Assembly (NCBI RefSeq): GCF_001815905.1
Contig: NZ_KV823250.1
Coordinates: 1-64,000 of the forward strand
Direction of reading: 5' to 3'
DNA from: Brevibacterium sp. HMSC07C04
GTDB lineage: Bacteria; Actinomycetota; Actinomycetes; Actinomycetales; Brevibacteriaceae
DNA: 64,000 bases
The position numbers and the translations under genes were made by a program. Below the pieces are notes generated by a model that worked only from the letters and a program-made list of their open reading frames with translations, searched no databases and was not told where the DNA came from. How positions within the stretch are numbered: position 1 is the first letter of the stretch; each line of letters begins with the position of its first letter. Shown here piece by piece: positions 33,654 to 51,056 of the stretch.

Positions 33654-33763
33654 AGCATTCGGCGCCGAAACACAGGCGGCAAAGAAAGTGTGACACCAGA
33701 TGACTATCCCGGCTATCCGGCCCGTCATAAAGCGTCGTGAAGCACGTTGGCGCGGATTTTCAC

Positions 33764-33769
33764 TAAGAT
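33764..33769 (+). promoter_or_regulatory. -10 box of a probable leaderless acyltransferase transcript
   Basis: TAAGAT followed by 7 bases (GACCCCG) and the ATG at 33777; no ribosome site. Confidence 0.6.
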
Positions 33770-33776
33770 GACCCCG

Positions 33777-35876
33777 ATGGTGAGGAAATACCGCGGCGAA
33801 ATTCAAGCCCTGCGAACAATCGCAGTGCTCGCCGTCGTCATCTACCACATCAACCCGAACTGGCTGCCCGGCGGATTCATCGGCGTGGACGTGTTCTTCG
33901 TCATCTCCGGCTACCTCATCACCACGGGGCTGCTGCGCCGCGTAGCCGAACACGGCAGAATCTCCGCAGCTGACTTCTGGGCCAACCGGGCCCGCCGAAT
34001 ACTGCCTGCGGCAACGCTGACCATCATCACGGTGACCATCGCGTCGCTGTTCATTCTGCCGCGCTCACAGTTTCCCACCCTGAGCCTGCAGGCAGTCGCC
34101 TCCGGCTTCTACATTCAGAACTACGCACTTGCCAGACAGTCGGTTGACTACTTGGCCGCCGACACAGCCCCCACACCCTTCCAGCACTTCTGGTCCCTGT
34201 CGATCGAAGAGCAGTTCTACATCTTCTGGCCCATGCTGGTAGTCGCCGCATGGCACATAGCTCAGCGCATCCGCTGGGCCAGCCCCACCGACGACATCCG
34301 CCACCGACGCCGCGTCAGAGTGGCAGCCACAGTGCTGTTCTTCGCTGTAGTCGGAGGGTCCTTCGCATACAGCGTCTACATCACCGCACACAACCCCACC
34401 AGCGCCTACTTCTACACCCTGTCACGCGTGTGGGAACTGGGAGTCGGCGGCATCCTCGCCGTCTACCTGGGCGACCCCGTGAAATTCCCCCGCACCCGCA
34501 AATGGCTGGCACTGACCGGCACGCTCACAATCCTCGCCTGCGCCTTTGCATATTCCGGCGACATTCCCTTCCCCGGTCTGACCGCCCTCGTGCCGGTGGC
34601 GGCAACCGCCGCAGTGATCACCGCAGGCCACACCACCGGTTGGGGGTCCCCACAGCGAATCTTCGAACTGTGGCCCGTGCAGAGAATCGGCGACTGGTCC
34701 TATTCCATGTACCTGTGGCACTTTCCGATCATCGTCTTCTTCGAAGCGCTCGCAGGGCGCAAAGCAACAGTGCTCGAAGCGGTCATCATTGTGCTGGCCT
34801 CTATACTCATCGCCGGATTCAGCTTCTACCTGTTCGAAAAGCCGATCCTGCACTCACCGACCATGCGCCGCTCATCTCCGCTGACCCTGGCCGGAGCGCT
34901 CGTGGCCGTCACCGCCGCGGTGGGCATCGGCACCGTGCCGCACGCTCTGGTCAAAATGGACGAGGCGAAAGCCGCCGCCGCTGAAGCTCAGGTCTTCGAC
35001 CCGCCGGAACTGACTGCCGCCGGTGAATTCGGGCCGGGATTCAAGTCCCTGCGGACCACCATGTACGAACCGGTCTACCAAGCCCAGCCCATCAAACCGG
35101 GACTGGGCTCGATCAGCGAAAACCACCCCACATTCGACGGGTGCGGAGACGTTCCCGCTCTCGGCACCTCGGCAAACACCCCACCGTGCACTGCCGGAGA
35201 CAGCAGCGGAACCAAAACACTCGTTGTGGCAGGTGACTCCCACGCGGTGCAGTGGGTGCCGGCATTTGAAGAAGCACTGGGCCGTCAGGGGTGGAAGATC
35301 GTCGTCATAGCGCGTGAAAACTGCCCGCTGAACCCCCAACCGCGCACTTTCGAGCAGCAGGAAAGCGGCTTTGTCTGCTCACAGGCCGTGCCGGACATGC
35401 TCACCAGCATTCAAAAGCAGAAGCCAGACGCCATCGTGATCACCAACCGCCGCTACGACGACTTCGCCGGCGGGCAGCCCAATGCCCAGCGCGGCTACGA
35501 AGAGGTCTTCGAGCAGCTGTCCGACACCGGAGCGAAGATCATTGCGCTGGGCGATTCTCCCGAAGCAGCGAACGAGGAGAACATGGCCGACTGCGTGGCC
35601 GCAGCCGGTGACGACACCAGCGCCTGTGACTTCCCACGGCCAGGGCAGGCAGAAGAGAAGTCCAACCGGGCGCTGCGCGGGGCCGCAGACAAAGCCGGTG
35701 ACAGCGTCGACTACGCAGACACCCTCGACGCCTTCTGCACCGACACCACCTGCCCGGCGGTCATTGGGTCTCGCGCCGTCTACCGTGACTCCAACCACAT
35801 CACAGCGGAGTATGCGACCACACTCGACAGCTATATCAGCCGTGATGTCGTTCCGCTGATCACAACTGCAGAATAA
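33777..35876 (+). CDS. OafA-type membrane acyltransferase with SGNH domain, copy 1
   Basis: 699-residue O-acyltransferase. The N-terminal acyltransferase-3 domain has about ten TM helices with the catalytic His segment YRGEIQALRTIAVLAVVIYH, PGGFIGVDVFFVISGYLIT, RARRILPAATL and FWSLSIEEQFYIFWP. It takes an acyl group from the cytoplasm and presents it outside. A TM helix at about 365-385 leads to an extracytoplasmic SGNH domain with the Ser motif VAGDSHAVQWVP and the Asp-His pair in YRDSNHITAEYA. It probably O-acetylates a wall glycan. ATG at 33777 is preferred over in-frame 33747, which lies upstream of the -10 box. Confidence 0.9.
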   Translation: MVRKYRGEIQALRTIAVLAVVIYHINPNWLPGGFIGVDVFFVISGYLITTGLLRRVAEHGRISAADFWANRARRILPAATLTIITVTIASLFILPRSQFPTLSLQAVASGFYIQNYALARQSVDYLAADTAPTPFQHFWSLSIEEQFYIFWPMLVVAAWHIAQRIRWASPTDDIRHRRRVRVAATVLFFAVVGGSFAYSVYITAHNPTSAYFYTLSRVWELGVGGILAVYLGDPVKFPRTRKWLALTGTLTILACAFAYSGDIPFPGLTALVPVAATAAVITAGHTTGWGSPQRIFELWPVQRIGDWSYSMYLWHFPIIVFFEALAGRKATVLEAVIIVLASILIAGFSFYLFEKPILHSPTMRRSSPLTLAGALVAVTAAVGIGTVPHALVKMDEAKAAAAEAQVFDPPELTAAGEFGPGFKSLRTTMYEPVYQAQPIKPGLGSISENHPTFDGCGDVPALGTSANTPPCTAGDSSGTKTLVVAGDSHAVQWVPAFEEALGRQGWKIVVIARENCPLNPQPRTFEQQESGFVCSQAVPDMLTSIQKQKPDAIVITNRRYDDFAGGQPNAQRGYEEVFEQLSDTGAKIIALGDSPEAANEENMADCVAAAGDDTSACDFPRPGQAEEKSNRALRGAADKAGDSVDYADTLDAFCTDTTCPAVIGSRAVYRDSNHITAEYATTLDSYISRDVVPLITTAE

Positions 35877-35927
35877 AAGCGTTTCTGCACCGCCGCACCA
35901 GGCGCATGCGGCTACCATTGCTCTGGA

Positions 35928-35933
35928 TACAGT
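35928..35933 (+). promoter_or_regulatory. -10-like box before the GtrB-like gene
   Basis: TACAGT 12 bases before the GTG start; the predicted leader is only about five bases. Confidence 0.4.
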
Positions 35934-35945
35934 CCCCTCAAACCT

Positions 35946-36905
35946 GTGAAGCTGAGAGTGCAAGAGAACAATCCCTTCGGCTCGCGCCGCATCGCCGCCA
36001 TCGTCCCGTGCCACAACGAAGAGCTGACGGTCGGGAAAGTCGTCACCGACCTGCGCGCCGCCCTGCCCGGCGCGGCAGTCTACGTCTACGCCAACAACTG
36101 CTCCGACAACACTGCCGAAGTCGCACGGGAAGCAGGCGCTGCCGTGCGCTTCGAAGACCGGCCCGGCAAAGGCAATGTCATCCGGCGGGCTTTCGCTGAC
36201 ATCGAAGCGGACATCTACCTGATCATCGACGGTGACGACACCTACGAAGCCGCAGACGCCCCCGGCATGGTCCAGACGATGATCGACGGGAACTACGACC
36301 ACGTGCTCGGGGTGCGCACCCCCGCCGATTCATCTGCGTACAGGCCCGGCCACGAAAGCGGCAACCGAGCGTTCAACGTTCTGACCAGCTGGACGTTCCG
36401 CGACAAGGTCACTGACATGCTGTCGGGCTTCCGGGTGTTCTCACGCCGGTTCGTCAAATCCTTCCCCGCCGTCAGTCGGCACTTCGAAATCGAAACCGAA
36501 CTCACGGTGCACACCATGTCGCTGCGACTGCCCAACGCCGAATACCCGGTGGGCTTTCGCGACCGTCCGGAAGGCAGCTTCTCGAAACTGTCCACCGTCA
36601 AAGACGGATTCAGAATCCTCGGCCTGATCACCCAGCTGACCGCCCACGAAAGGCCCCGGCTGTTCTACGGCGGTCTGACCGTTCTGTTTGCCCTCATTTC
36701 GCTCATCCTGGGCCTTCCCGTGGTGTGGGAGTACTTCCAAACCGGCTACGTGCCGCGCCTGCCCACCGCGCTGCTGTCAGCAGGCTGCATGATCCTTGCG
36801 TTCCTCATGGGATCGGTGGGAATCATCATGGACGGTGTGCGCCGAGCCCGCCGAGAGACCTCCCGCCTGCACTACCTGGCACTGCCGGCGCCCGGAAATG
36901 AGTGA
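35946..36905 (+). CDS. GtrB/DPM-like polyprenyl-phosphate glycosyltransferase
   Basis: 319-residue GT2 of the dolichyl-phosphate mannosyltransferase/GtrB/CsbB type, which loads a sugar on undecaprenyl phosphate at the inner membrane face. GT-A core at about 15-235: AAIVPCHNEELTVGKVVTDL, VYANNCSDNTAEVAREAGA, PGKGNVIRRAF, YLIIDGDDTYEA (DxD) and DMLSGFRVFSRRFVKSFP, then FRDRPEGSFSKLSTVKDGFR. Two C-terminal TM helices follow (FYGGLTVLFALISLILGLPV and LLSAGCMILAFLMGSVGII). This two-TM tail and the overlapping gtrA gene are the hallmark of three-component glycosylation systems. The GTG start is uncertain. Confidence 0.87.
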   Translation: MKLRVQENNPFGSRRIAAIVPCHNEELTVGKVVTDLRAALPGAAVYVYANNCSDNTAEVAREAGAAVRFEDRPGKGNVIRRAFADIEADIYLIIDGDDTYEAADAPGMVQTMIDGNYDHVLGVRTPADSSAYRPGHESGNRAFNVLTSWTFRDKVTDMLSGFRVFSRRFVKSFPAVSRHFEIETELTVHTMSLRLPNAEYPVGFRDRPEGSFSKLSTVKDGFRILGLITQLTAHERPRLFYGGLTVLFALISLILGLPVVWEYFQTGYVPRLPTALLSAGCMILAFLMGSVGIIMDGVRRARRETSRLHYLALPAPGNE

Positions 36906-37365
36906 GAGTCGGCACAGCTCGCTGATCAAGGAGGCGCTGCAGTTTCTGACCGTCGGCGGCATCAGCTACATCGTCGATGTGGGGCTGTCCAACCTCCTGG
37001 TGTACGGCCTGTGGGCAGTGCCCGCACTCCTGCACGACGGCCCCATCAAAGCGAAGATCATTTCGACTATTGCGTCCGTCATCGTCGCCTGGATGGGCAA
37101 TAAGCTGTGGACCTACGGAGACAGGGAGACCGGCTCAAACCTGCGCGGTTTTGTGCTGTTCGTCCTAGTCAACGGCGCCGGCATGATCATCACCGTGCTG
37201 CCGCTGGCCTTCACCTGGTACGTGCTGGGACTGCGCGGCCCCATTGCCTACAACATTTCGACGAACATCGTCGGCATCGGCCTGGCCATGGTGTTCCGCT
37301 TCTACGCCTACCGAACCTGGGTCTTTCGCGACACGCGCGAAGTTCTTGACGGCCCTGCGTCCTGA
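36898..37365 (+). CDS. GtrA-family polyprenyl-phosphate-sugar flippase
   Basis: 155-residue protein with four TM helices; GtrA proteins are thought to flip undecaprenyl-phosphate-sugar to the outer face. Characteristic segments: ALQFLTVGGISYIVDVGLSN, VASVIVAWMGNKLWTYGDRE (conserved NKLWT) and MVFRFYAYRTWVFRD at the end. It overlaps the GtrB-like gene by 8 bases, so it is translationally coupled. Its 3' 201 bases are antisense to the end of the GT52-DUF6716 gene on the other strand. Confidence 0.9.
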   Translation: MSESRHSSLIKEALQFLTVGGISYIVDVGLSNLLVYGLWAVPALLHDGPIKAKIISTIASVIVAWMGNKLWTYGDRETGSNLRGFVLFVLVNGAGMIITVLPLAFTWYVLGLRGPIAYNISTNIVGIGLAMVFRFYAYRTWVFRDTREVLDGPAS

Positions 37366-39549
37366 CCTGTAAGCACGCACCACCGGTTTGGGTGAGTGCG
37401 CGCGCAGCTCTGCGCGCAGAGTCGGCCAGGACTGAAGTGAATCCCGGGTCTTTCGGCCCGCGAGTTCATAGTTCTCCGAGCGTCGCGCCAAGCACGCCAG
37501 CTGCGAAGGGACCTCCTCGCTGGGCTTTTGAAAGTAGTTCTCCTCCAGCCAGGCCGGGTCCGGGTGGCGGAAGTTGCCCGCCGCGAGGTCATCGAAAGTT
37601 CCTATGAGGTTTGAACCGGCGAAGACCTCATTGAGCATTTTCTTGGTCACCCCGAAATCGCCGATGATGAAAGTGCGCAGGCCCCGGTCCAGAGACTCCA
37701 GCGCCGCAGTTGATGACACCGTCACAAGCGCAGCCCCGTCTGTGAGGAAATCAGCCATGGGGCCGACTTCAACCTGGAGGTCGTCAGGTCCCAAAGCTCC
37801 TTCGGCAATGAGCTCCGACAGGATCTCAATATAGGTGTGCTCTTCGTGGTGGGTTTCGTGTTCGCCTGGGCGGCTGCGGACCTTGATGATGACAGGAACA
37901 TCGAGCTGTCTTCCGGCACGGGCAAGTTCCAGCAGAGCGGTGCGACGGTCACAGCGCTCCTTGGGAACCTTTGCCTGCGGGGCGAAGATAATGCGGTTCG
38001 GGGCTGTGCCGTCGGCGAACTGCGGCTGCGGAGCACCGACGGACTTCAGCATGGGCAGGCGTCCCACCCACACATCCACCGGCAGGCCCAGCCGTCGATT
38101 GACCTCGCGGTACAGCTGGCGCTCGTGTTCAGAATGGGCTATGAAAGCATCCCCGCGGCGGCGGTAGCGCTGGCCCTTGAACGTTGCAGGCAGGCCCACA
38201 CCGGGCAGACCGGACACCAAACCGGGTCGGCGCGGCAGACGAGCGGCAGTCGAATACACCGTCTGCACCACCGGGCCGGTGGCCGCTGCCAACACCACGT
38301 CCGGGCTGGCCGCCGACAGTTCGCCCTCCAAACGAGACACGGGGACCAGGGGGACCTCCGCCTCGGCCCGCGATGTTCCGGCAACCGCATTGGCAATCTG
38401 CTCGCCCGTGGGCTGGATGGGAGACTCGACAATCCACAGGTCCGTTTCAAAGCTGTCGTCCAAGCCGTCCAGCAGCGCAGCCGCCCACTTGAGATAGGAC
38501 TCGCTGTCACAGACGGCGACAAGCCGGTGGCGCCTCGCCCCGTGAGAATCGAGCATCCGGCCCGGTGAGAGGGCCGACTGGGCATTGAGTTCACGACGCA
38601 GCGAGTCCGGGGCGGATGTTTCCCACCACGCGCGCGGAATTTCGGTGATGTGGATTTCGGGGCAGTCCATGACCAGCGGCAGTGTCTGCACCGCCGTTGA
38701 CGGCATCGAATAGACCGGTGTGTGCGCGGGAAACGGCGCCAATCGCAGTTCGAGAGGCGTGCCCGATTCCACGACGGTGATGCCCTGCAGGGCGCCGATG
38801 GCAGCGAGTTCGTCAGCTGTCTGGCGGCGGTGAGCGAAATACAGTGCAGGCTGCTGCCTGCCGATACCAGCGGCCCAGTCGATAAGCGCCTGTTGGTTGA
38901 TCAGCCCGTCAGCGGCAAGAGCAGTGCCCACAATGACAGCGCGGTCGGTGGGAGTGTCGGGCGCGGTGGCCTCCAAACACCTGCGCACCTGCGCGAAGGA
39001 ATGACGGACGAGTTTCCCACCGGCGGCCGTAAAGCGCTGCGGCAGGGACTCATCGGGCGTCAGAGCGCTGAACCACGTGAGCCTGCCCAGCTTGATGGCG
39101 CTGCGCAGCACCGCTGCGGCGGCATGGCCCAGCGCGGTCCGCCGCACCGTCGGTTTGATGCGCGCACGGACAAGCGCCTGCCGGTTGGGGCTCAGAATAA
39201 GTCGGATAGCGCGCACCGTGGCAAAGCCGTCATCAAGAACCGTGATGTGCGGCAGCCCTCCCGGCCGCACCGCACATTCGGCAAGCAGCCGCTGAATCCT
39301 GCCGGACAGAGGGTCACCCAAAAGCAGATGGCCAGCCTGCGCGGCTTGCGCGGGGGAGGGGAAGCCCGACTGCAGGCGAGAGTCGTCCCGCAGCAGACCC
39401 TCGGGCAGGTTGCTGGCGAACGCGGCCAGTGACGGACTGTCTTCGCGAATGCAGACCACCACGTCGTCTCTGTGCTGAGCAGCGTGCAGAGCCTCCAGCC
39501 CTGACAGAAGCTGCAGAGGTGATTCAGCCAGAATGTACGTTCGTGCCAC
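37165..39549 (-). CDS. Fusion of a polysialyltransferase-like (GT52) domain and a DUF6716 putative glycosyltransferase domain
   Basis: 794 residues, two glycosyltransferase-like halves. Residues 1-330 resemble the polysialyltransferase (GT52) family: ARTYILAESPLQLLSGLEAL at the N-terminus, VLDDGFATVRAIRL, VYSMPSTAVQTLPLVM. Residues 345-725 match the actinobacterial DUF6716 type: RHRLVAVCDSESYLKWAAALL, VLAAATGPVVQTVYSTAA, GLVSGLPGVGLPATFKGQ, AFIAHSEHERQLYREV and TVSSTAALESLDRGLRTFII. GTG start behind GGGAGG. The last 66 residues are read from DNA antisense to gtrA and look like non-conserved sequence. Likely donor is CMP-nonulosonate for the first half, given neuA/neuB 11 kb away; the second half's donor is unknown. 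Confidence 0.75.
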   Translation of the reverse strand: MARTYILAESPLQLLSGLEALHAAQHRDDVVVCIREDSPSLAAFASNLPEGLLRDDSRLQSGFPSPAQAAQAGHLLLGDPLSGRIQRLLAECAVRPGGLPHITVLDDGFATVRAIRLILSPNRQALVRARIKPTVRRTALGHAAAAVLRSAIKLGRLTWFSALTPDESLPQRFTAAGGKLVRHSFAQVRRCLEATAPDTPTDRAVIVGTALAADGLINQQALIDWAAGIGRQQPALYFAHRRQTADELAAIGALQGITVVESGTPLELRLAPFPAHTPVYSMPSTAVQTLPLVMDCPEIHITEIPRAWWETSAPDSLRRELNAQSALSPGRMLDSHGARRHRLVAVCDSESYLKWAAALLDGLDDSFETDLWIVESPIQPTGEQIANAVAGTSRAEAEVPLVPVSRLEGELSAASPDVVLAAATGPVVQTVYSTAARLPRRPGLVSGLPGVGLPATFKGQRYRRRGDAFIAHSEHERQLYREVNRRLGLPVDVWVGRLPMLKSVGAPQPQFADGTAPNRIIFAPQAKVPKERCDRRTALLELARAGRQLDVPVIIKVRSRPGEHETHHEEHTYIEILSELIAEGALGPDDLQVEVGPMADFLTDGAALVTVSSTAALESLDRGLRTFIIGDFGVTKKMLNEVFAGSNLIGTFDDLAAGNFRHPDPAWLEENYFQKPSEEVPSQLACLARRSENYELAGRKTRDSLQSWPTLRAELRAHSPKPVVRAYRSGRRAVKNFARVAKDPGSVGVEAEHHGQADADDVRRNVVGNGAAQSQHVPGEGQRQHGDDHAGAVD

Positions 39550-39661
39550 GCAATATCCTCCCTAAATGTGCACGACCCGGCGCAGACAGTGACAGCAACC
39601 GGGAAGCGCTGTGAGATTATGGGCCAAGAGTGAATCAAACAGATGACCGGAAGGTAAACAC

Positions 39662-40624
39662 ATGGCAGTCATGGTGACCGGCGGTGCCGGTTACATCGGT
39701 TCGCACGTTGTGCGACTGCTCAAACAGCGCGGCGATGACGTAGTCGTCGTCGATGACATGTCCAACGGAGTGCGTTCGCGTGTTGAAGGGCTTCCGGTTG
39801 TCGAAGTCGACCTCGCATCCCCGCAGGCACCTGAAGTGCTGCGCGGAGTGTTCGCTGACTACAGCGTCGACTCCGTCATCCACTTTGCCGCCAAGAAGCA
39901 GGTGGGAGAATCCGTTGAGCGTCCCCTCTGGTACTACCAGCAGAACGTCGGCGGGCTCACCAATCTGCTGCAGGCCATGGAAGACTCCGGCATTGAAACG
40001 CTCGTGTTCTCGTCTTCGGCAGCCGTGTACGGCATGCCAGACGTTGAAATGGTGCGCGAAACAACAGACTGCCACCCCATCAACCCGTACGGTCACACCA
40101 AGCTCATCGGCGAATGGCTCATCGACGCTCAAATGGCAGCCGGCAGGCTTTCCGCGGTGAAGCTGCGCTACTTCAACGTTGCAGGCACCGGCTGGTCCGA
40201 CCTTGCCGACACCGCCGTGATGAACCTCATTCCCATCGTGCTCAACCGCTTTGATCAGGGCCAGCAGCCGGTTGTCTTCGGCGATGACTACGACACCCCG
40301 GACGGCACGTGCATTCGCGACTACATTCACGTGGCGGATCTCGCCGAAGCCCATATTTCCGCTCTCGACTACCTCAAGGGCGGCAATATCCGCGGAACCT
40401 CGTTCAACGTGGGCACGGGCACGGGCGCTTCGGTCCTCGAAGTCATCGACGCGGTTTCCAAGGCTCTTGGCGAAGATCTCGAACCCGTCATGGCCGACCG
40501 CCGTGCAGGCGACCCACCGCAGCTGATTGCCGATCCCACGGCAATCAACGCAGACTTGGCCTGGAAAGCGCAGTTCACCCTGGACGACATTGCTCGCAGC
40601 GCGGTTGAAAGCCGCACTCGGTGA
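39662..40624 (+). CDS. galE: UDP-glucose 4-epimerase
   Basis: Interconverts UDP-glucose and UDP-galactose (or the GlcNAc/GalNAc pair). 320-residue SDR-extended enzyme: NAD loop TGGAGYIGSHVVRLL, active-site FSSSAAVYG and YGHTK (Tyr-xxx-Lys), PDGTCIRDYIHVADLAEAH, and the C-terminal ADRRAGDPPQLIAD. ATG behind GGAAGG. Its stop overlaps the next membrane-protein gene by 4 bases (GTGA), placing it at the head of the operon with the three GT-C-like paralogs, presumably as sugar-nucleotide supplier. galU at 2.7 kb makes its substrate. Confidence 0.95.
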   Translation: MAVMVTGGAGYIGSHVVRLLKQRGDDVVVVDDMSNGVRSRVEGLPVVEVDLASPQAPEVLRGVFADYSVDSVIHFAAKKQVGESVERPLWYYQQNVGGLTNLLQAMEDSGIETLVFSSSAAVYGMPDVEMVRETTDCHPINPYGHTKLIGEWLIDAQMAAGRLSAVKLRYFNVAGTGWSDLADTAVMNLIPIVLNRFDQGQQPVVFGDDYDTPDGTCIRDYIHVADLAEAHISALDYLKGGNIRGTSFNVGTGTGASVLEVIDAVSKALGEDLEPVMADRRAGDPPQLIADPTAINADLAWKAQFTLDDIARSAVESRTR

Positions 40625-42072
40625 CTCCTGCTCGATCAGCGGTGACCGCTGAGTCTCCTCTCAACCGCCGTCACCGCTGCATTTTCGCTGCTTCTGCGGG
40701 CATAGCCACAGCACTGGCCTGGCTGCTGTATGGAGCAATGGCTCCCGGCGGCTTCAGCAAGGACACCGTCTTCCAGCTGGGTCAGGCTCAGCGGACGCTT
40801 CCGCTCAACGACTGGCACCCCATAGCCATGACCTGGACGTGGCAGTGGCTCATAGACCTCACGGGGACCATCAACTCGATGCTCTTCATGCAGGTCTGCG
40901 CCGCGTGGGTCTGCGCGGTGCTGACCGCGTACTACCTGCTCAAAGTGTCCCGGCGCGGATGGAGCGCGCTGGCAGGTCTGTTCATCCTGTTCATGCCCAA
41001 CACCGTCAACATCGTCGGGATCGTGTGGAAGGACACCCACCTGGGCCTGGCGCTGTACTTCGCGGTGATTCTCACGCTGCTCATGCCGGTGGTGCCCAGG
41101 CTTCGCTGGGTGCTTGCGGCGCTTGCCTTCGGCGCCCTGGTCTACGGCGGGCTGGTGCGCAAGAACTCAGCCGTTGCAGTCCTGCCGATCATCGCGCTCA
41201 TCGCCGTGTGGCTGCTGGTCCGCATCAAGGGCAAGAAGTCAAAGGAACAGAAGCGGACGACGGGGCAGAAGCGGACACTGTCCAAGCGGCGCAGACTGAC
41301 AGCCGCCGTCGTGGCAGCAGTGAGCTTCGGTGCCGTGCTCGTAGGGGTTGACACGGGTCTCAAAGCATCGCTCCAGCCGACCGAGAATTCGCAGTTCACG
41401 CAGGTGATGCTCGACGACCTCGTATTCGCGGTGCCGCAGGAATCCATTGACGCAGCTGCGGCTCCCGCGGCGGAGAAGACGCGACTGGCCCAGGCCAAAA
41501 TTTCGTGCGCCGACAAGAACACCGAACGCCGCGAAGCCGGCAAAGCGGAGATCATCTGGGACGCCTACTGGGACTGCTACGGCATGGGCGCGAACGGTGA
41601 ATACACCCAGATCCAAGATCCAGCGGCCGTGACCAGCATCTGGAAGCAGACAATGCCGCAGCACCTGGACAGCTATGCCGCCTACCGCATTCAGACCACG
41701 ACGAAGTTCCTCTTCACATCGAAACTCCAGTTCATCCGCGACCGCGACCGCGATTACCCCGCACAGCAGCAGATGCTTCGCGCCTCCCTGCGCACCTATG
41801 TTGTTGACTTCGGAGTTGCAGTCTTCCCGTGGCTGTTCCTGGGGGCAGTCGCAGCTGGGCTGTCTGCAGTCGGAATCGCTGTGGGTGCCAAGAAGAGACG
41901 ACGTTCACCGGGTGCGCTCGTTGTATTCAGTTCAGCCATTCTGTACCTCATGACCTACGTGCCGACCGCTCCGGCGAATGACTACCGCTATGTTTTCTGG
42001 CCGTGGCTTGCCGCGATGCTGGGCTGGCTGGTGCTGTGGGCCGAAGGCCAGAAGCGCCGCCGCATGGGATGA
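40621..42072 (+). CDS. GT-C-like polytopic membrane protein, paralog 1
   Basis: 483-residue protein with about ten TM helices, probably a polyprenyl-phosphate-sugar-dependent (GT-C) glycosyltransferase; it may correspond to the DUF6020 group. Shared with the proteins at 42141 and 45903: an Asp after TM1 (D48 in FSKDTVFQLGQ) and DWHP exactly 16 residues on (64-67), WKDTHLGLALYF (KD in the third loop), LVRKNSAVAVLP, then an outside domain with LDDLVFAVPQES, a Cys (KISCADKN) and WDAYWDCYGMGANG, and a final PTAPANDYRYVFWPW. The N-terminal Asp position fits the catalytic acid of GT-C enzymes. GTG start overlaps galE. The acceptor is unknown. Confidence 0.7.
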   Translation: MTPARSAVTAESPLNRRHRCIFAASAGIATALAWLLYGAMAPGGFSKDTVFQLGQAQRTLPLNDWHPIAMTWTWQWLIDLTGTINSMLFMQVCAAWVCAVLTAYYLLKVSRRGWSALAGLFILFMPNTVNIVGIVWKDTHLGLALYFAVILTLLMPVVPRLRWVLAALAFGALVYGGLVRKNSAVAVLPIIALIAVWLLVRIKGKKSKEQKRTTGQKRTLSKRRRLTAAVVAAVSFGAVLVGVDTGLKASLQPTENSQFTQVMLDDLVFAVPQESIDAAAAPAAEKTRLAQAKISCADKNTERREAGKAEIIWDAYWDCYGMGANGEYTQIQDPAAVTSIWKQTMPQHLDSYAAYRIQTTTKFLFTSKLQFIRDRDRDYPAQQQMLRASLRTYVVDFGVAVFPWLFLGAVAAGLSAVGIAVGAKKRRRSPGALVVFSSAILYLMTYVPTAPANDYRYVFWPWLAAMLGWLVLWAEGQKRRRMG

Positions 42073-42128
42073 GACGGCGCTCACAGGGGCCGTAAAGGGG
42101 TGTTCACTGGTTTTGGAGGAACAGCCCG

Positions 42129-42134
42129 TACAGT
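42129..42134 (+). promoter_or_regulatory. -10 box of a probable leaderless transcript for paralog 2
   Basis: TACAGT followed by 6 bases (TCTCCT) and a GTG start. This would be an internal promoter in the galE operon. Confidence 0.55.
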
Positions 42135-42140
42135 TCTCCT

Positions 42141-43646
42141 GTGCCCCAAACCACTGTTGAAAATGAAACCGCCGCGCCGAAGGCCGTGTCTGAGCGCGCT
42201 CCTCTAAGCCCTGAGCACCGCAGGGTGATGGGCGTGCTCTCAGTCATCGGCACAGTGCTCGCAGGCCTCATCATTTTTGCCATGTACCCCGGCGGTATCA
42301 GCCCTGACGGAGTTTTCCAGGTCAGGCAGATTCGCGGCGAGGTTCCGTACAACGACTGGCAGCCGGTCTCTATGACCTGGACGTGGCACCAGCTGACAAA
42401 CATCTTCGGCACTGTCACGGCCCTGCTGTGGGCACAGGTCCTCTTCGGCTGGGTGTGCGCGCTGCTGACCAGCTATGTGCTGCTGAAGATCTCCCGGCGC
42501 ACCTGGGTTGCCGCACTGGGCCTGTTCATGCTTTTCATGCCGAACATGGTCAACATCCTGGGCGTCTTCTACAAGGACGTGCACTTAGCGCTGGCGCTGT
42601 ACCTGGCTGTTCTCATGATGTTCCTGGTGCTGCTCCAGCCGAAAGGACGCTGGGTCTGGGCCGCCGTGGCGTTCGGCAGTTTGGTCTATGCGGCGCTTGT
42701 GCGCAAGAACTCCGCCGTAGCGGTGCTGCCCATTGTTGCGGTGTTCGTGCTGTGGTTCCTGCGGGCCCGCGGCAGCCGTGTTCGGGCAGAACTGGTCAAA
42801 GTCGGCGTCATCTCTGTTCTTGCCACCGGCATTGTCGGCGGGACGGTGCTCGCAGCGGACAAAGCACTTGCCACCGCCACCGGTGCCACCCAGAACTCGC
42901 AGTTCACCCAGGTGTTCATCGACGACATCGTCTTCGGCATGCCCGAAGAGGCGATCTTTGCGGCAGATGCCCCGCAAGCAGAAAAAGACCGCATCATGTT
43001 CGCCCGCGAAACCTGCAAGAAGCGCGAAGAACAAGAAGGGCGTGAAATCATATGGGACGCCTACTGGAACTGCTACGGCCTAGGCGTCAACGGGGCATAC
43101 ACGGAAGTTGAGGACCCCGATGCCGTGGTCACACTGTGGAAGGCAACAGTGCCTCACCACCTGGGCGACTACGCCAAGTACCGAACTAAAACCACCTGGC
43201 GGTTCCTGACCCACACATCGTCCGTGGCCGCTGCACCGGTCCGCGGTGACCAGGTGGACTTACCGCCCACCCACCCGAAGGCACGCGACATTCACTCCGG
43301 CTACGTCTACTCAGCCGCCTACGGGTTCATGCCGTTCATGTTTCTGGGCATAACGGCGCTCGCGGCCTGCATAGTGGGCGCAGTCGTCAGTCTGCGCACA
43401 CGCACCCGTTCCCTGGGGGCGTGCGCCGTTTTCACATCCGTCATCCTCTACGTCCTGACGTATTTCCCCACCGCGCCAGCAGACCTGTACCGCTACAGCT
43501 ACTGGCCGTTTGCCGGAGCTATGTTCGGCTGGCTGCTGATCGCGGCGTCGCGCAGGCACACCCGCAGGCTCCGCTGTGAAAAGCAGCGCCCGATGGTCAA
43601 ACGCAGCCGGACAGTCGTGCACGATTCCGCCGACACTTCTCAGTAG
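42141..43646 (+). CDS. GT-C-like polytopic membrane protein, paralog 2
   Basis: 501-residue paralog of the preceding gene, most similar to it. Signature positions: D56 in SPDGVFQVRQ, DWQP at 72-75 (again 16 residues apart), FYKDVHLALALYL, LVRKNSAVAVLP, IDDIVFGMPEEA, Cys in ARETCKKRE, WDAYWNCYGLGVNG, and PTAPADLYRYSYWPF. About ten TM helices with one long outside loop (about 235-370). It starts 68 bases after paralog 1 and probably has its own leaderless promoter. Having a near-duplicate side by side suggests two enzymes for two positions or sugars. Confidence 0.7.
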   Translation: MPQTTVENETAAPKAVSERAPLSPEHRRVMGVLSVIGTVLAGLIIFAMYPGGISPDGVFQVRQIRGEVPYNDWQPVSMTWTWHQLTNIFGTVTALLWAQVLFGWVCALLTSYVLLKISRRTWVAALGLFMLFMPNMVNILGVFYKDVHLALALYLAVLMMFLVLLQPKGRWVWAAVAFGSLVYAALVRKNSAVAVLPIVAVFVLWFLRARGSRVRAELVKVGVISVLATGIVGGTVLAADKALATATGATQNSQFTQVFIDDIVFGMPEEAIFAADAPQAEKDRIMFARETCKKREEQEGREIIWDAYWNCYGLGVNGAYTEVEDPDAVVTLWKATVPHHLGDYAKYRTKTTWRFLTHTSSVAAAPVRGDQVDLPPTHPKARDIHSGYVYSAAYGFMPFMFLGITALAACIVGAVVSLRTRTRSLGACAVFTSVILYVLTYFPTAPADLYRYSYWPFAGAMFGWLLIAASRRHTRRLRCEKQRPMVKRSRTVVHDSADTSQ

Positions 43647-43649
43647 CCT

Positions 43650-43655
43650 TAGAAT
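43650..43655 (+). promoter_or_regulatory. -10 box of the second acyltransferase gene
   Basis: TAGAAT just after the preceding stop; the predicted leader is about 40 bases and holds GAGGAG before the ATG. Confidence 0.45.
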
Positions 43656-43701
43656 TCGAACCCGGACTGCCCACTGACCGTCAAACGAACGCGAGGAGAC
43701 C

Positions 43702-45906
43702 ATGCACCGTAGGTTTCGGCCGGAGATCCAGATGCTGCGCGCACTGGCCGTCGTCACCGTGGTCGTCTATCACATCAACCCGGATTTCCTGCCGGGCGGC
43801 TTTGTGGGCGTTGATGTCTTCTTCGTCATATCCGGGTTCCTCATCACAGCGCACATGCTGCGCGAAGCCGAACGCACCCAGACGGTCAACCTGCTGACAT
43901 TCTGGGCGAACCGGGCTCGCCGCATCCTTCCGGCGGCGACGGTCGCGATTGTGGTCACCGCCCTGGCATCCCTGTACTTTCTGCCGCGCAGCGCTTTATC
44001 TCAAGCCGCGGTTGAAGGACTGTCCTCAGCGTTCTACGTGCAGAACTGGGCGCTGGCTTCCGGCGCGGTTGACTATCTGGGCGCCCAGAACTCGCCATCG
44101 CCGTACCAGCACTTCTGGTCGCTGTCGATCGAAGAGCAGTTCTACATTCTGTGGCCGCTGGTGGTGATCCTGGCCGTGTGGGTTGCGGGACGGACCACCG
44201 CTCGCCACTCACGAGGCGCCGTCCCCGGTATTCTGCGCAAGCTCGGCACGGCGGGGGCGCACCATGTGTCACCCGAGCATCGTTTCCACCGGACGTTCCG
44301 CATCTGCGTCGGCATTCTCTTTGCCGTCATCATCCTGGCGTCGTTCGTGTGGTCGGCGGTGCTTGTGGGCTCCGGTGATCCCACCGCGTACTTCGTCACC
44401 CAGTCCCGCATTTGGGAACTCGGCGCCGGCGGTCTGCTGGCCGTGGTTATGGTCGATACGGAGCGCTTTGCGCGTCTGCGCACGCTGTTGGCCCTTGCCG
44501 GCGTCACCGCGATTGTCGTGGCATGTATTTTCTACGACGGCACCACACCGGCGTTTCCGGGAATATCAGCGCTCCTGCCCGTGCTGGGCACCATGGCGGT
44601 CATTGCGGCCGGACGGACGCAGGGGCTGGGCTCGCTCACTCCGATTGTCGATCTGCGGGCAGTGCAGAAGATCGGCAATTGGTCGTACTCGCTGTACCTG
44701 TGGCACTTCCCCCTGGTGGTCTTCTTCACCGCGCAGTTCGAACGCCATGCCAATACCATCGAAGGCACCGGCCTGCTGGCCTTCGCGGTGGCGCTGGCTT
44801 ATCTGAGCTTCACCTTTGTTGAAGAGCCCCTGCGCCGCAGCGAACTTCTGAAGAAGCGCAGGTGGCTGACAGTGGAAATCGCGGCGGTGTCCATGGTGCT
44901 TGCCGCGGTGCTCGCACTTGTTCCGCAGTGGGCGGTCAACCGTGAATACGACAGGGTGCCGGAAGCACAGGAAACATACGACACGGTTGCCGATGATCAG
45001 GCGCAGCAGAAACAGGAAGACAGTGAGCCGCTGTTCGGTGCTCGCGCAATCAGCGATCCGCTGGACACGTTCGACCTGCCAATGCACGCTGAGGGCCAGG
45101 AAGACTATTTCCCGAAGGCGGTCGATCTTATTGAAGACCGTCCCCAGTTCCCTGACGAGTGTGACCCGTACCCGAACAAGAGGGAAGCCGACACCATACG
45201 CGGCTGCACTGTCCTCAACCCGGGAGGGTCAAAAGAACTGGCCGTGGTGGGGGATTCCCATGCGGCACAGTGGGTGCCGGGACTGGAAAAGGCCCTTGAC
45301 GGCACAGACTGGAAGCTGCGCGTCTACGCGAAGAACGCCTGCGGTCTGAACACGACCCCTCGTGACTACAAAAACGAAGGGCTCAACTGTGTTGAGCCGG
45401 TGAAGAAGCTCGTCAAACACCTTGTAGAAGACAAACCGGACAAGGTGCTCATTGCGAACCTCGACGTTGACGACTACGACGTCGACGCGGCGCGCGAGCA
45501 GGGTCTCGCTGACTCTGACGTTGTCGGCTACGATGGCTACATTGAAACTCTCAAGCCGCTGAAGGAAGCCGGAATCGATGTCGTCGCATTCGGCGATACC
45601 CCCATCCCGCCTTCCAATATGGCCGACTGCATGGGTCTGAATGAAGCCAACCCGGAAGAATGCAATTTCAAACGCGAAGACCCCAAACCTGACGGTGCGG
45701 ATCTCGCTTTGAAACAGGCTTCGGAAGACCTCGGCATCCGCCACTGGGATCCCACACCGTATTTCTGCGGCCAGTCCACAACGTGTCCTGCCGTGGTCGG
45801 GTCGGTGGTCGTCTACCGCGACAATGACCACATTTCGGCAGCCTATTCGGAAACTTTGGCTGACTACGTGGTCAAGGCCCTGAAGATAGAAACAGCCGAA
45901 CAGTGA
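43702..45906 (+). CDS. OafA-type membrane acyltransferase with SGNH domain, copy 2
   Basis: 734-residue O-acyltransferase, clearly paralogous to copy 1. AT3 domain: FRPEIQMLRALAVVTVVVYH with the catalytic His, PGGFVGVDVFFVISGFLIT, ANRARRILPAATVAI, FWSLSIEEQFYILWP. SGNH domain: VVGDSHAAQWVPGLE and YRDNDHISAAYSETL. An extra cytoplasmic or loop insert of about 30 residues near 165-200 (RTTARHSRGAVPG...) contains an ACGAGGCGCCG word at the DNA level. Its stop overlaps the third GT-C-like gene (GTGA), so acylation and glycosyl transfer are probably coexpressed. ATG behind GAGGAG. Confidence 0.9.
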   Translation: MHRRFRPEIQMLRALAVVTVVVYHINPDFLPGGFVGVDVFFVISGFLITAHMLREAERTQTVNLLTFWANRARRILPAATVAIVVTALASLYFLPRSALSQAAVEGLSSAFYVQNWALASGAVDYLGAQNSPSPYQHFWSLSIEEQFYILWPLVVILAVWVAGRTTARHSRGAVPGILRKLGTAGAHHVSPEHRFHRTFRICVGILFAVIILASFVWSAVLVGSGDPTAYFVTQSRIWELGAGGLLAVVMVDTERFARLRTLLALAGVTAIVVACIFYDGTTPAFPGISALLPVLGTMAVIAAGRTQGLGSLTPIVDLRAVQKIGNWSYSLYLWHFPLVVFFTAQFERHANTIEGTGLLAFAVALAYLSFTFVEEPLRRSELLKKRRWLTVEIAAVSMVLAAVLALVPQWAVNREYDRVPEAQETYDTVADDQAQQKQEDSEPLFGARAISDPLDTFDLPMHAEGQEDYFPKAVDLIEDRPQFPDECDPYPNKREADTIRGCTVLNPGGSKELAVVGDSHAAQWVPGLEKALDGTDWKLRVYAKNACGLNTTPRDYKNEGLNCVEPVKKLVKHLVEDKPDKVLIANLDVDDYDVDAAREQGLADSDVVGYDGYIETLKPLKEAGIDVVAFGDTPIPPSNMADCMGLNEANPEECNFKREDPKPDGADLALKQASEDLGIRHWDPTPYFCGQSTTCPAVVGSVVVYRDNDHISAAYSETLADYVVKALKIETAEQ
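44211..44221 (+). repeat. ACGAGGCGCCG repeat, coding copy
   Basis: The only copy inside a gene, in the segment encoding HSRGAV of acyltransferase copy 2. Confidence 0.5.
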
Positions 45907-47360
45907 AGAAGTCGTCCCGGTGGAGCCTGCTGCTCGTCGCACTGACAGCATTCTGCGCCGCTGGGACGATCATCGGCTTCGGCACCGGCCGGGCCGAATA
46001 CGACATTGTTGAACAGTTCAAGCAGGCTGTCGGCCAGAAGCAGATGAGCGACTGGCATCCGCCGATCGTCGCCGTTGTGTGGAGAGGCCTGTACGGGCTG
46101 ACCGGTTGGATCGGATCGCTGTTCGTGTGCTCGGCGCTCCTGTACTTCACCGGAGTGCTGCTGACCGCCGAGTATGTTCACCGGCGGTTGGGCAGCCGAC
46201 TGGGTTCGCTCGGCGTTTTGGCCGTATCCATCAGCCCGTGGGCGTACAGCCAGATCAACATCCCGTGGAAAGACACAATCCTCACCGGTGCACTGCTGGC
46301 CGGGTGCGGCTGCGTCATGCTCATACGCCGCGGCGCCCGGTCAAAGCGGACCGCAGTTCTCGCGCTGGTCGCGGTGGGAGCGCTGATCTTTGCGACTCTG
46401 GTGCGCAAAAACGCCATAGCCGCAGTTGTGCCCATCTGCTTCTACCTGGCCTGGCAGCTGCTGCCGATTGCACACCGTACGATGCGGAAGCTGCAGGCGC
46501 GCAACAGCGCGGCCAGTTCGAGTTTGCGCAGGTTCGTCGCATGGCTCGCTGGGTCCTTTGTTCTCATCTTTGCGGTTGGTGGGGCGGCTGTCGTCGCCGA
46601 TGCCGGAATCGCAAGAGTCTGGCACGTCAAGGAAACCCACCAGGAATATCAGGTGATGCTCGATGACGTCATGTTTTCGGTTCCCGAAGATGAACTCAAC
46701 GCAGCCGATGTTACTCCGAAGCTGAAGAAGCGCATCAACACGTCTAGAGCTCTCTGCTATGAAAGAGGCGTATTCTACGACGCCTATTGGAACTGTTTCG
46801 GAAGAGGCCACGGCGGAGACTATCAGCCTATTGAAGAATCCCACAGACAAGGTCTGGAAAAACTGTGGCGTGAGAACGTCATCACACACCCCGCGCGCTA
46901 TCTTTCCTACCGCTGGTCTGTGTACCGCTTCTATTTGACGACTTCCGCGCTGGAGTATTTCCAATATCCCGTAAACACTGCGCAGGAGATCGGGTTCGGC
47001 ACCGGGCCTGAGCCGTTTGAACGTGCGGTGAAAACATATGTTTTGGATTTCGGCGTTGAGAAGCTTGGGTTCACATTCAAACCTTGGTTCTGGCTGACAG
47101 GCTGCGTTCTAGTCGCAGCTGTGGCTCTGAAGCGCAGGCGTGCGGCAGCCGCCGTGCTCACGCTGACGGCGTCAGCCTTCCTCTACACAGCCGCGTACTT
47201 TCCGGTGATCCCCGAAGCTCACTTCCGCTACACCCACTGGCCTGCCGTAGCGGTGTCTATAGCCCTGATAGCTGCTTTCACGGAACATTTCAGGGGCAAA
47301 AGCAAGCGGCCCGCCGAAACAGCCGACGGGCCGCTGCGCGAGAAGACTTCAGCGCTGTAA
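45903..47360 (+). CDS. GT-C-like polytopic membrane protein, paralog 3
   Basis: 485-residue, more divergent third member of the family. Signature positions: D34 in AEYDIVEQFKQ, DWHP at 50-53 (16 residues apart as in the others), WKDTILTGALLA, LVRKNAIAAVVP, LDDVMFSVPEDE, Cys in SRALCYERG, YDAYWNCFGRGHGG, and PEAHFRYTHWPAV. GTG start overlaps the acyltransferase stop by 4 bases. Its end overlaps the converging GT52 gene by 12 bases. Conservation of just these residues in a divergent paralog marks them as functional. Confidence 0.7.
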   Translation: MKKSSRWSLLLVALTAFCAAGTIIGFGTGRAEYDIVEQFKQAVGQKQMSDWHPPIVAVVWRGLYGLTGWIGSLFVCSALLYFTGVLLTAEYVHRRLGSRLGSLGVLAVSISPWAYSQINIPWKDTILTGALLAGCGCVMLIRRGARSKRTAVLALVAVGALIFATLVRKNAIAAVVPICFYLAWQLLPIAHRTMRKLQARNSAASSSLRRFVAWLAGSFVLIFAVGGAAVVADAGIARVWHVKETHQEYQVMLDDVMFSVPEDELNAADVTPKLKKRINTSRALCYERGVFYDAYWNCFGRGHGGDYQPIEESHRQGLEKLWRENVITHPARYLSYRWSVYRFYLTTSALEYFQYPVNTAQEIGFGTGPEPFERAVKTYVLDFGVEKLGFTFKPWFWLTGCVLVAAVALKRRRAAAAVLTLTASAFLYTAAYFPVIPEAHFRYTHWPAVAVSIALIAAFTEHFRGKSKRPAETADGPLREKTSAL

Positions 47361-48812
47361 GGGCCTGACCGTCCTCTTCACGCGCCTTCGGAGCCTGCGA
47401 TAGGGCTCCCGCAGATTTGTGGGCAGGCGTCTTTCAATCTTGCCGTTCTGGACCTTTTCCTTCTTCGGCAAAGCTCCCGGAAGATTGAGCTTGGTCAGTC
47501 GGCGCCTGCGGAAGTACCGAATATCGTCCGTGTGCTGCGCGGTCTTCAAATAGGATTCCGCATGAGTGCGCAGATGCGGAACGACCTTGGGGCGCGACGC
47601 ATAGGCAATGGCTTCGATCAGACCCTGCAGACGCTCAATGTCATCGGAGGTCAGTGCACCGGCCGAACCGTCCATGACGGCGTCACAGAGGACAGCCGGA
47701 ATGCGGTTGGAGTTCTCAAACGGGGTCAGCGCATTCAACACGGTCTGCGTGCCGACTGCAACAGCGGGAATGCCGTAGGCCGAGCGCGCCGTGGCAAGCG
47801 TCGTTGAGAAGCACCCGATTACAAGCGCCGGTGACAGATGCTCCAGGATTGCTTCGGCGATGACCGGACGGTTGAATATCGTGAAGCCCAGCCCCAAACC
47901 CTCAGCAGCATCGCGCAGAGCACTGACAGCAGCCGGCGGCGCTGCAGGGTGCGGTTTGAAGACCACGTGAGCGGCACCTCGGCGGTGTGCTTCTTCCAGC
48001 ATGCTCACGTGCATCCGGTCTTCTTCATCCGGCGTGAGAATATCGAGAGCAGCCAGGTACTGACCGACCACCAGCGCGGTGGAAGAACCGGACAGAGAGC
48101 CCAGCTGTGCATCGAGAACAGCCCTGACAGTCTCCAGGCTTTCGACAACCACACGCCGATACGCGTCCCAGCTCAGTGCAACCGGGACGATTCCGTGTTC
48201 GCTCAACAGCACCGGGTCCAGCTGCTCAATGTAGGGCAGGTAGTGCAGAGAAGTCATGCGCTGACCATTGCTCAGATGCAGATGATTGCGCGTTGCCGCA
48301 TAGGACATCAGACCGTCAGCGTGCACCCTCTGAAAAGCGGTGTGAAAGACACGGCCAATCGCCACGGCAGGGTTGACCTGCGGTGATTCGACAATCAGCT
48401 CGAGCTCAGCATCGCCGAGCTCCCAACGCTGACGCAGCAGGCGCTCCCATACGGGAAGTTCGGTATCTTCCGGGGACCACGTGGAAGGATGAATGGGCGA
48501 CAGCGTGGCATTGAGGTCGACGACACGGTCAAAGCGGCTCAGCGCAGGCTGCGCTTCGGGCAGCTCCCACAGCGGTGTCGCTGTTTCAGGGGCAAGCGAA
48601 TGGTTCGATACAACGAGGATGCGCTCAGAAATCGACGGGAAGTCATCTCGCACGCGCCGCTCGGCGGGCATAGCCTCAAGTGTGCTGAAAGGTTCGCCGA
48701 TCGACAAAGACGCCACCTGCGGAAGCCATCCGGTGTCATACGCGCCGTCGTCAATGCCTGCGGCAAGCGTAATCACCTGAGACATAGTGGAAACAAAGAA
48801 CAGCTGTTTCAT
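47349..48812 (-). CDS. Polysialyltransferase-like (GT52-type) glycosyltransferase
   Basis: 487-residue GT-B protein of the alpha-2,8-polysialyltransferase-like family. N-terminus QLFFVSTMSQVITLAAGIDD, a central LHYLPYIEQLDP, then the CMP-binding-side motifs HVVFKPHPAAPPA (the family HP motif) and PALVIGCFSTTLATARSAYG (the Ser-rich SST motif). The last 70 residues are strongly basic (KLNLPGALPKKEK ... RRLRRRVKRTVR), probably membrane-associated. The start overlaps the preceding GT2 stop by 4 bases. With neuB and neuA upstream, it likely transfers a nonulosonic acid. Confidence 0.82.
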   Translation of the reverse strand: MKQLFFVSTMSQVITLAAGIDDGAYDTGWLPQVASLSIGEPFSTLEAMPAERRVRDDFPSISERILVVSNHSLAPETATPLWELPEAQPALSRFDRVVDLNATLSPIHPSTWSPEDTELPVWERLLRQRWELGDAELELIVESPQVNPAVAIGRVFHTAFQRVHADGLMSYAATRNHLHLSNGQRMTSLHYLPYIEQLDPVLLSEHGIVPVALSWDAYRRVVVESLETVRAVLDAQLGSLSGSSTALVVGQYLAALDILTPDEEDRMHVSMLEEAHRRGAAHVVFKPHPAAPPAAVSALRDAAEGLGLGFTIFNRPVIAEAILEHLSPALVIGCFSTTLATARSAYGIPAVAVGTQTVLNALTPFENSNRIPAVLCDAVMDGSAGALTSDDIERLQGLIEAIAYASRPKVVPHLRTHAESYLKTAQHTDDIRYFRRRRLTKLNLPGALPKKEKVQNGKIERRLPTNLREPYRRLRRRVKRTVRPLQR

Positions 48813-50014
48813 GCCGATGTCCTTTCCGTTTCCGGAAGATACCAGGAAATATGCGCCTGGCGTTTGTCAGTGCTGGCTGCGAAGACTTCGCTGAAAACAT
48901 CCCGCGGGATGCGCTGAGCCACCCGTCCGCCACGAGCACGAAGGGCATCCAGCACTTCCTGCGGAATGATCTGCACGGGCGGGAGATCGCTGGGATCCTT
49001 CGTGGCCTGAATGTTCCTGCGCTCTTCCTCGACCGCCGCCAGAAACATCTGCGAACGCCCACGACGGCCGGCAACGCGAAGCTTGAGATGGTCGAGAACT
49101 GAAGAATCTGCGCTCGTCTCTGCTGTGTCGACCCCGAGCTCTGCAACCGCCTGGGCATAGGCGACCGCCTGGATATAGCGCTTATGGTGATGTTCCATGA
49201 GCGCAAACAGGTTGCGGGCTGCTTTGGGGTAGAAGGTGTGACCCTCAGAGTCGTTGTCCAAGCGTTCGAAGATGAGATCAAAGGCATCGAGGAACATCAG
49301 CTGGCGCTCATCCAGAATCTGGGTGAGAGAACCGCTGACATTGCGCCGATACATGATGCCGGGAGCATCAACCACGGCAAATGATTCAGCATCCAGGTGC
49401 AGCCCCCAGATCCAGCTGCGGTCTTCGGCCGTCATGAAGTCCTTGGGAAAGTACAGCAGTCCTGAATCGCGCAGGCGCCTATGGAAGATTCCCGCCCACG
49501 CGTAGGGGTAATCGACCATGGTGTTGGTGTGGGCCGGGAGGATTCCGGTGCGGGGATTGAGCGCGCGATTCCTAACCGACATGGGTGCCCGCTTGAGACC
49601 GCGCTTGTTGCCGGTGACGGTCGTGTGGTCGCAGCGCACAAAATCGACGTGCAGACTCTCCATTGCCGCGAGCATGGTGGGCAGGTGGTTCGGGGCCAGC
49701 CAGTCATCGCCGTCGAGGAAGACGATGTATTCGCCCTCGGCCCGGTCAAGGCCCTGATTGCGGCCATTGGCCAGGCCGACATTGGTGGGGTTGGTGATGA
49801 CTTCGAAGTTGTCGAACTTCGCACCGAACTCATCGAGGACTTGGGCAGTCCCGTCCGAGCTTCCGTCGTCGACTGCTATGACCTGCAGCTCTTTGAGGTC
49901 AATGGGGTCTGGCTGCAGTGGGTGGGGTTCGGCCTGCATGAGAATAGACCGGTAGACCTGCGGCAGATAGTGCGCACAGTCCTTTGCGGGAACGATAAGC
50001 GAAAGCTTGGGCAT
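48809..50014 (-). CDS. Family 2 glycosyltransferase
   Basis: 401-residue enzyme. GT-A domain at about 1-230: KLSLIVPAKDCAHYLPQVYRS, VIAVDDGSSDGTAQVLDEF, GLANGRNQGLDRAEGEYIV, FLDGDDWLAP (DxD), and FMTAEDRSWIWGLHL (ED base). A helical C-terminal region of about 170 residues follows, ending SWYLPETERTSA. The frame stays open upstream to 50299, but ATG at 50014 is where homology begins. It lies after a terminator-like hairpin that follows neuB, and is coupled to the GT52 gene. It resembles GT2 domains found with capsule or teichoic-acid polymerases; the sugar is unknown. Confidence 0.87.
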   Translation of the reverse strand: MPKLSLIVPAKDCAHYLPQVYRSILMQAEPHPLQPDPIDLKELQVIAVDDGSSDGTAQVLDEFGAKFDNFEVITNPTNVGLANGRNQGLDRAEGEYIVFLDGDDWLAPNHLPTMLAAMESLHVDFVRCDHTTVTGNKRGLKRAPMSVRNRALNPRTGILPAHTNTMVDYPYAWAGIFHRRLRDSGLLYFPKDFMTAEDRSWIWGLHLDAESFAVVDAPGIMYRRNVSGSLTQILDERQLMFLDAFDLIFERLDNDSEGHTFYPKAARNLFALMEHHHKRYIQAVAYAQAVAELGVDTAETSADSSVLDHLKLRVAGRRGRSQMFLAAVEEERRNIQATKDPSDLPPVQIIPQEVLDALRARGGRVAQRIPRDVFSEVFAASTDKRQAHISWYLPETERTSA

Positions 50015-50046
50015 GGGGATCTTTCGGTGCTCTGAAACTGCGGTCA

Positions 50047-50090
50047 ATTCAGTTCGCACCCCAGCGAGGGAGCCGGGGTGCGAACTGAAT
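50047..50090 (-). terminator. Hairpin between neuB and the GT2 gene
   Basis: A 16-bp perfect stem (arms 50047-50062, ATTCAGTTCGCACCCC, and 50075-50090) with a 12-base loop, no T-tract. It separates neuA-neuB from the downstream GT2-GT52 pair and may give partial termination. Confidence 0.65.
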
Positions 50091-50114
50091 GTCGGTAGAG
50101 GTGGTCGGCGCGAC

Positions 50115-51026: not shown

Positions 51027-51056
51027 GTCAATCCTTTCGGGTAGGTGGTTTTCGGC

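Follow-up and report, generated by a model that had tools for sequence, protein, structure and literature searches.

It is difficult to spot the third component of a GtrAB system by sequence, and the locus studied here raises the question of whether three related polytopic proteins encoded near a gtrB–gtrA pair could be components of this kind and, if so, which sugar they would transfer and to what. The window that we analysed is a stretch of 64,000 nucleotides from the actinobacterium Brevibacterium sp. HMSC07C04 (contig NZ_KV823250.1), the genome assembly of which comprises 2.47 Mb in 63 contigs and is 99.97% complete.

Organization of the gene set

The putative first component, a polyprenyl-phosphate hexose synthase of the gtrB type, is encoded on the plus strand at 35946–36905. 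It is a GT2 protein (PF00535, 4e-14) with two C-terminal hydrophobic segments, the first beginning near residue 237 and the second near residue 269. Its best NCBIfam match was AglJ (4e-54, below the cut-off of that model) and phmmer matches in the PDB included dolichol-P-mannose synthase 5mlz; in domain, relatives (AglJ and DPMS) and hydrophobic segments the protein thus has the features of the synthase of GtrA/GtrB/GT-C systems, a GT2 with C-terminal TM helices. The gtrA gene for the second component, a lipid-linked sugar flippase (36898–37365, plus strand; GtrA-type by PF04138, 6e-21, over cut-off), starts inside the end of gtrB with an overlap of 8 bp, so that the pair of overlapping genes described in the original prediction holds in full. 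Immediately 5′ of gtrB lies a gene for an OafA-SGNH acyltransferase (33747–35876, plus strand; PF01757, 4e-30; PF19040, 7e-32) with a probable accessory role, and the overlap and short gap suggest that oafA-gtrB-gtrA (33747–37365) forms one unit.

A second unit begins with galE, encoding a UDP-glucose 4-epimerase (39662–40624; PF01370, 2.5e-55), and continues on the plus strand with the GT-C-like paralogs 1 (40621–42072) and 2 (42141–43646), a further OafA-like acyltransferase with an SGNH domain (43702–45906; PF01757, 3e-28; PF19040, 1e-28) and paralog 3 (45903–47360). Overlaps of 4 bp join galE to paralog 1 and this acyltransferase to paralog 3, and the remaining gaps are 68 and 55 bp, for which reason galE-fam1-fam2-oafA-fam3 looks like one operon, in agreement with the arrangement originally predicted. 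The interleaved acyltransferase gave a SucT-like NCBIfam match below cut-off, and we infer for it an accessory O-acylation of a surface glycan. The paralogs of the window genome lie at least 3.8 kb from gtrB, in a separate transcription unit. The same layout is found in Brevibacterium ravenspurgense, the nearest named record, having paralogs 74–92% identical to those of the window.

Between gtrA and galE there is one convergent gene on the opposite strand, encoding a DUF6716 putative glycosyltransferase, the frame of which extends some 200 bp, in antisense orientation, into the 3′ part of gtrA (37165–37365); at the B. ravenspurgense locus the corresponding antisense overlap is about 100 bp (L054). 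A third protein with Acyl_transf_3 and SGNH domains is encoded at 60871–62964 (plus strand), outside the gene set.

The paralogs form a constrained sequence family

The three paralogs have lengths of 483, 501 and 485 residues, with paralogs 2 and 3 being 48% and 30% identical to paralog 1. When 26 family members with identities down to about 25% were aligned, the first outer loop (EL1) contained an invariant Asp, which was followed in all 26 by a DWHP motif at a distance of exactly 16 residues, with the D-W present in every member and the H and the P in 25 each. Equally constant in all 26 were the KD of a (W/F/Y)KD triplet, the R and N of VRKN, a DD pair with its following F, the YW of DAYW, both Cys residues and an R-Y close to the last TM helix. 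The signature in the original prediction was therefore shared, including its spacing, although the W of WKD, the LV of LVRKN and the D of DAYW turned out to vary. This signature is real and strongly constrained, far beyond what chance would give.

None of the window paralogs matched a Pfam or NCBIfam model above cut-off. Paralog 2 came nearest, to PMT_2 (PF13231; 18.6 bits against a cut-off of 26.1, E=0.0023) and to the LA_3751/2 NCBIfam (E=3e-4, below cut-off), and PMT_2 was matched at E≤0.01 by two of the 26 family members, with a best E-value of 5e-7. The YfhO model found no match at E≤0.01 in a Pfam scan of the same 26 members. The NCBIfam identities WsfD and LA_3751 were discarded as weak matches far below cut-off. 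Sequence searches of the PDB with the family yielded no meaningful match and searches of plasmids none at all, while a single pattern scan of genome contigs found the family in Brevibacterium and Galactobacter only. At the level of sequence, the candidate third-slot GT-C of the GtrAB system is a new family, the window members of which score below the cut-off of every Pfam and NCBIfam model.

In the family tree, subfamily A comprises paralog 3 together with the genes that occupy the slot beside gtrAB, and in other species its member usually separates gtrB from gtrA. Paralogs 1 and 2 belong to subfamily B and pair as sisters in the lineage that unites B. ravenspurgense with the window genome. 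The tree has a small third group as well. Two or three family copies are also present in several other species. At one locus (L040:9849–11427, in G010) a copy is split over two frames near an intact one and is apparently a decaying gene.

Genetic linkage of the family to gtrB

The original prediction connected the paralogs to GtrAB by proximity only, a reservation that comparison across the genus has overtaken. Most of the family-bearing Brevibacterium loci examined have the order gtrB-fam-gtrA or gtrB-gtrA-fam: at loci L045–L051, L053, L059, L077 and L080, for example, gtrB and gtrA flank a single member encoded on the same strand, and the order gtrB-gtrA-fam is seen at L043 (G007:C4) and at L092, the latter in another genus of the Brevibacteriaceae. 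Two Galactobacter contigs have the order gtrB-fam, with no gtrA seen nearby. Every one of the 41 copies of gtrB in the genus shares a contig with a family member, the gap between the two having a median of 186 bp and falling within 700 bp in 35 of the 41.

Among 57 genomes, 40 have both gtrB and the family, 14 have neither, none has gtrB alone and three have the family alone. In two of these three (G016 and G017) gtrB is also gone and the family gene is truncated at its 5′ end, apparently through one deletion spanning gtrB and the start of the family gene; in the third (G051) the gene is close to the edge of a contig, in a genome that is 87% complete. The co-occurrence gave a Fisher P of 9e-11 with kinship ignored, and on the GtrA tree, with G016 scored as lacking, absence amounts to six changes, at least five of them forced by well-supported branches. 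As adjacency eases joint deletion, co-absence and linkage do not count as independent evidence. The link between GtrAB and the family is the best supported part of the gene set.

This distribution also bears on which of the paralogs would use the GtrB product. Paralog 3 could be the only one to do so, with paralogs 1 and 2 drawing on another lipid-linked donor such as polyprenyl-P-mannose, for these two are set apart in a well-supported subfamily of their own, stand behind galE rather than gtrAB in the window, and have in their vicinity a gene for a protein O-mannosyltransferase (PMT), the expected user of polyprenyl-P-mannose. We regard this as unlikely, however, since a subfamily-B member occurs elsewhere in a gtrB-gtrA-fam set of its own (L043) and the well-assembled genomes lacking gtrB yielded no intact family member. 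Because subfamilies A and B both have members beside gtrAB, both probably use the GtrB product.

Predicted fold of the paralogs

AlphaFold2 models, built from the window and named-locus sequences only, reached a mean pLDDT of 84.1 for paralog 2 and 87.9 for paralog 3. Foldseek searches of the PDB ranked ArnT first for both (E=4e-3 and 5e-4, respectively), followed almost entirely by other GT-C enzymes, namely PMTs, EmbA/B/C, AglB, ALG3 and ALG9, with PglB and DPY19 further down. The order of helices in the two models, with TM1 followed by two short helices and then TM2 onward, is that of the GT-C module, with modest E-values in the searches. Whole-chain TM-scores were about 0.3–0.45, which together with those E-values suggests GT-C-like proteins having a divergent variable half. 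When the family was aligned to the profile of the neighbouring PMT, the EL1 Asp fell on the Asp of FDE and DWHP on HPP, a weak alignment (E=0.009, hhalign probability 5%). The models thus support, at modest E-values, that the paralogs belong to the GT-C fold superfamily, and we propose the EL1 Asp as their likely catalytic base. The original prediction had proposed a GT-C-like third component and had named an unrelated fold as the finding that would speak against it; no such fold emerged. Joined to the 41/41 linkage and the co-absence, the fold searches describe a polytopic GT-C genetically tied to the synthase.

The same rankings weigh on two other readings. Polymerases or ligases of the Wzy/WaaL kind, working on diphosphate-linked glycans rather than transferring monosaccharides, would suit the polysaccharide cluster in which the genes lie, and WaaL does appear far down one of the fold lists (probability 0.44), but the leading fold matches are all GT-C, the EL1 Asp is conserved and the constant partner is a GtrB-type synthase, leaving this reading very improbable. 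Transporters or flippases for a wall precursor, suggested by the polytopic nature of the paralogs and by MFS-type matches, have the least chance of all, given that transporters rank at a Foldseek probability of ≤0.23 only, that invariant acidic, aromatic and paired Cys residues lie outside the helices and that GtrA already supplies a flippase. Both a transporter and a polymerase fold were rejected on the Foldseek ranking.

Proposed mechanism, sugar donor and acceptor

All features that can be tested by computation fit a three-component system, and we consider it highly probable that the gene set directs transmembrane glycosylation of wall glycopolymers by way of GtrB, GtrA and the three GT-C paralogs. 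The family, its motifs, the predicted GT-C-like fold, the synteny and the co-absence were computed, and from them we infer the flipping, catalysis, sugar, acceptor and division of labour that follow. At the inner leaflet GtrB (35946) would load polyprenyl phosphate with a hexose taken from a nucleotide sugar, GtrA (36898) would move the polyprenyl-P-hexose to the outer leaflet, and the three integral-membrane paralogs would use it outside the membrane, each probably with an acceptor site or polymer of its own.

The donor sugar is probably galactose or glucose. Galactose is favoured by the finding that the galE heading the operon was the only galE homologue found in a search of the genome; galE is not beside the family gene in most species with a single member, and GalE has other uses.

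With regard to the acceptor, three TagF-like proteins are encoded in the neighbourhood, and a nonulosonate module on the minus strand (47349–52325) encodes a PF07388 polysialyltransferase-like protein, a GT2, a NeuB-like synthase and a fusion of a NeuA/PseF-like cytidylyltransferase with a KdsC-like phosphatase. A search of the 99.97% complete genome found no PF02350 epimerase (NeuC/WecB), with matches in 11 of 14 control genomes, and the nonulosonate is for this reason more likely to be Kdn than a ManNAc-derived sialic acid. Kdn-teichulosonic acids occur in actinobacteria (PMC11481543, PMC6801904), and in Brevibacterium iodinum a mannitol teichoic acid bears glucose side chains and a glycerol teichoic acid carries GalNAc (PMC6801904). 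The neighbouring genes probably supply the acceptor, in the form of a teichoic acid, a Kdn-type nonulosonate polymer or both, and the acyltransferases may decorate the same wall glycopolymers. More tentatively, and with less than an even chance in our estimate, the paralogs may represent a new GT-C family, so far found in Brevibacteriaceae and Galactobacter only, in which one GtrAB pair feeds three GT-Cs, each modifying its own sites on a teichoic or Kdn-type (teichulosonic) polymer. The neighbouring PMT (PMT and PMT_4TMC; 52536–54191, minus strand) is encoded at the edge of the wall-polymer cluster, which a PMT gene adjoins in several other Brevibacterium species as well.

Relation to known systems

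Multi-component systems of this general kind are established in Firmicutes, including CsbB-GtcA-YfhO, GtlA-GtcA-GtlB, GttA-GttB/GtlB, CsdAB/CD/EF with CflA, and GtsABC, and there one flippase or synthase can serve several GT-Cs, as with CflA or with GttA acting together with GttB and GtlB (PMC8035078). The Brevibacterium set shares with them a GT-A synthase with TM helices, a GtrA flippase and a polytopic GT-C-like transferase, but its third component is of a different sequence family (DWHP/KD/VRKN/LDD/DAYWxC) that scores below the Pfam and NCBIfam cut-offs, and three paralogs accompany one gtrAB in an actinobacterial host. Polyprenyl-phosphoribose/GT136 systems likewise combine a lipid-P-sugar synthase, a flippase and a GT-C for post-polymerisation side chains, but use a pentofuranose donor, a MATE-family flippase and a GT136 transferase (PMC11127046). 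ArnT and the PMTs (GT83, GT39) have the nearest solved folds and, by the weak profile alignment, a comparable arrangement of an EL1 Asp and a subsequent HP motif; the window proteins have no sequence match to them above cut-off, and the acceptors of ArnT and PMT are lipid A or protein. The general principle of such systems is already established, and what is new is the sequence family of the GT-Cs and their occurrence as a set of three.

The family is actinobacterial and unmodelled, its signature is strong, and its natural presence and absence among close species make the wall-sugar prediction directly testable. We know of no biosynthetic side-chain pathway for teichulosonic acid, and if the nonulosonate polymer is the acceptor, these genes would make the attachment of side chains to such acids accessible to genetics.

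Retention and additional copies of gtrA

Genomes without the GT-C family have kept gtrA in all cases except one incomplete assembly, so that GtrA must have some further role or partner. It stays after loss of gtrB and the family at loci L062–L074, several having an adjoining acyltransferase 3 gene, and lies intact beside the truncated family genes of G016 and G017 (L078, L094). A literature search on Brevibacterium GtrA gave nothing relevant, judging by title and abstract. Most genomes of the genus carry a second GtrA; at L075 (G000:C25, about 9.4–15.7 kb) its gene lies near those for an LCP (LytR_cpsA_psr) protein and a phosphomannose isomerase.
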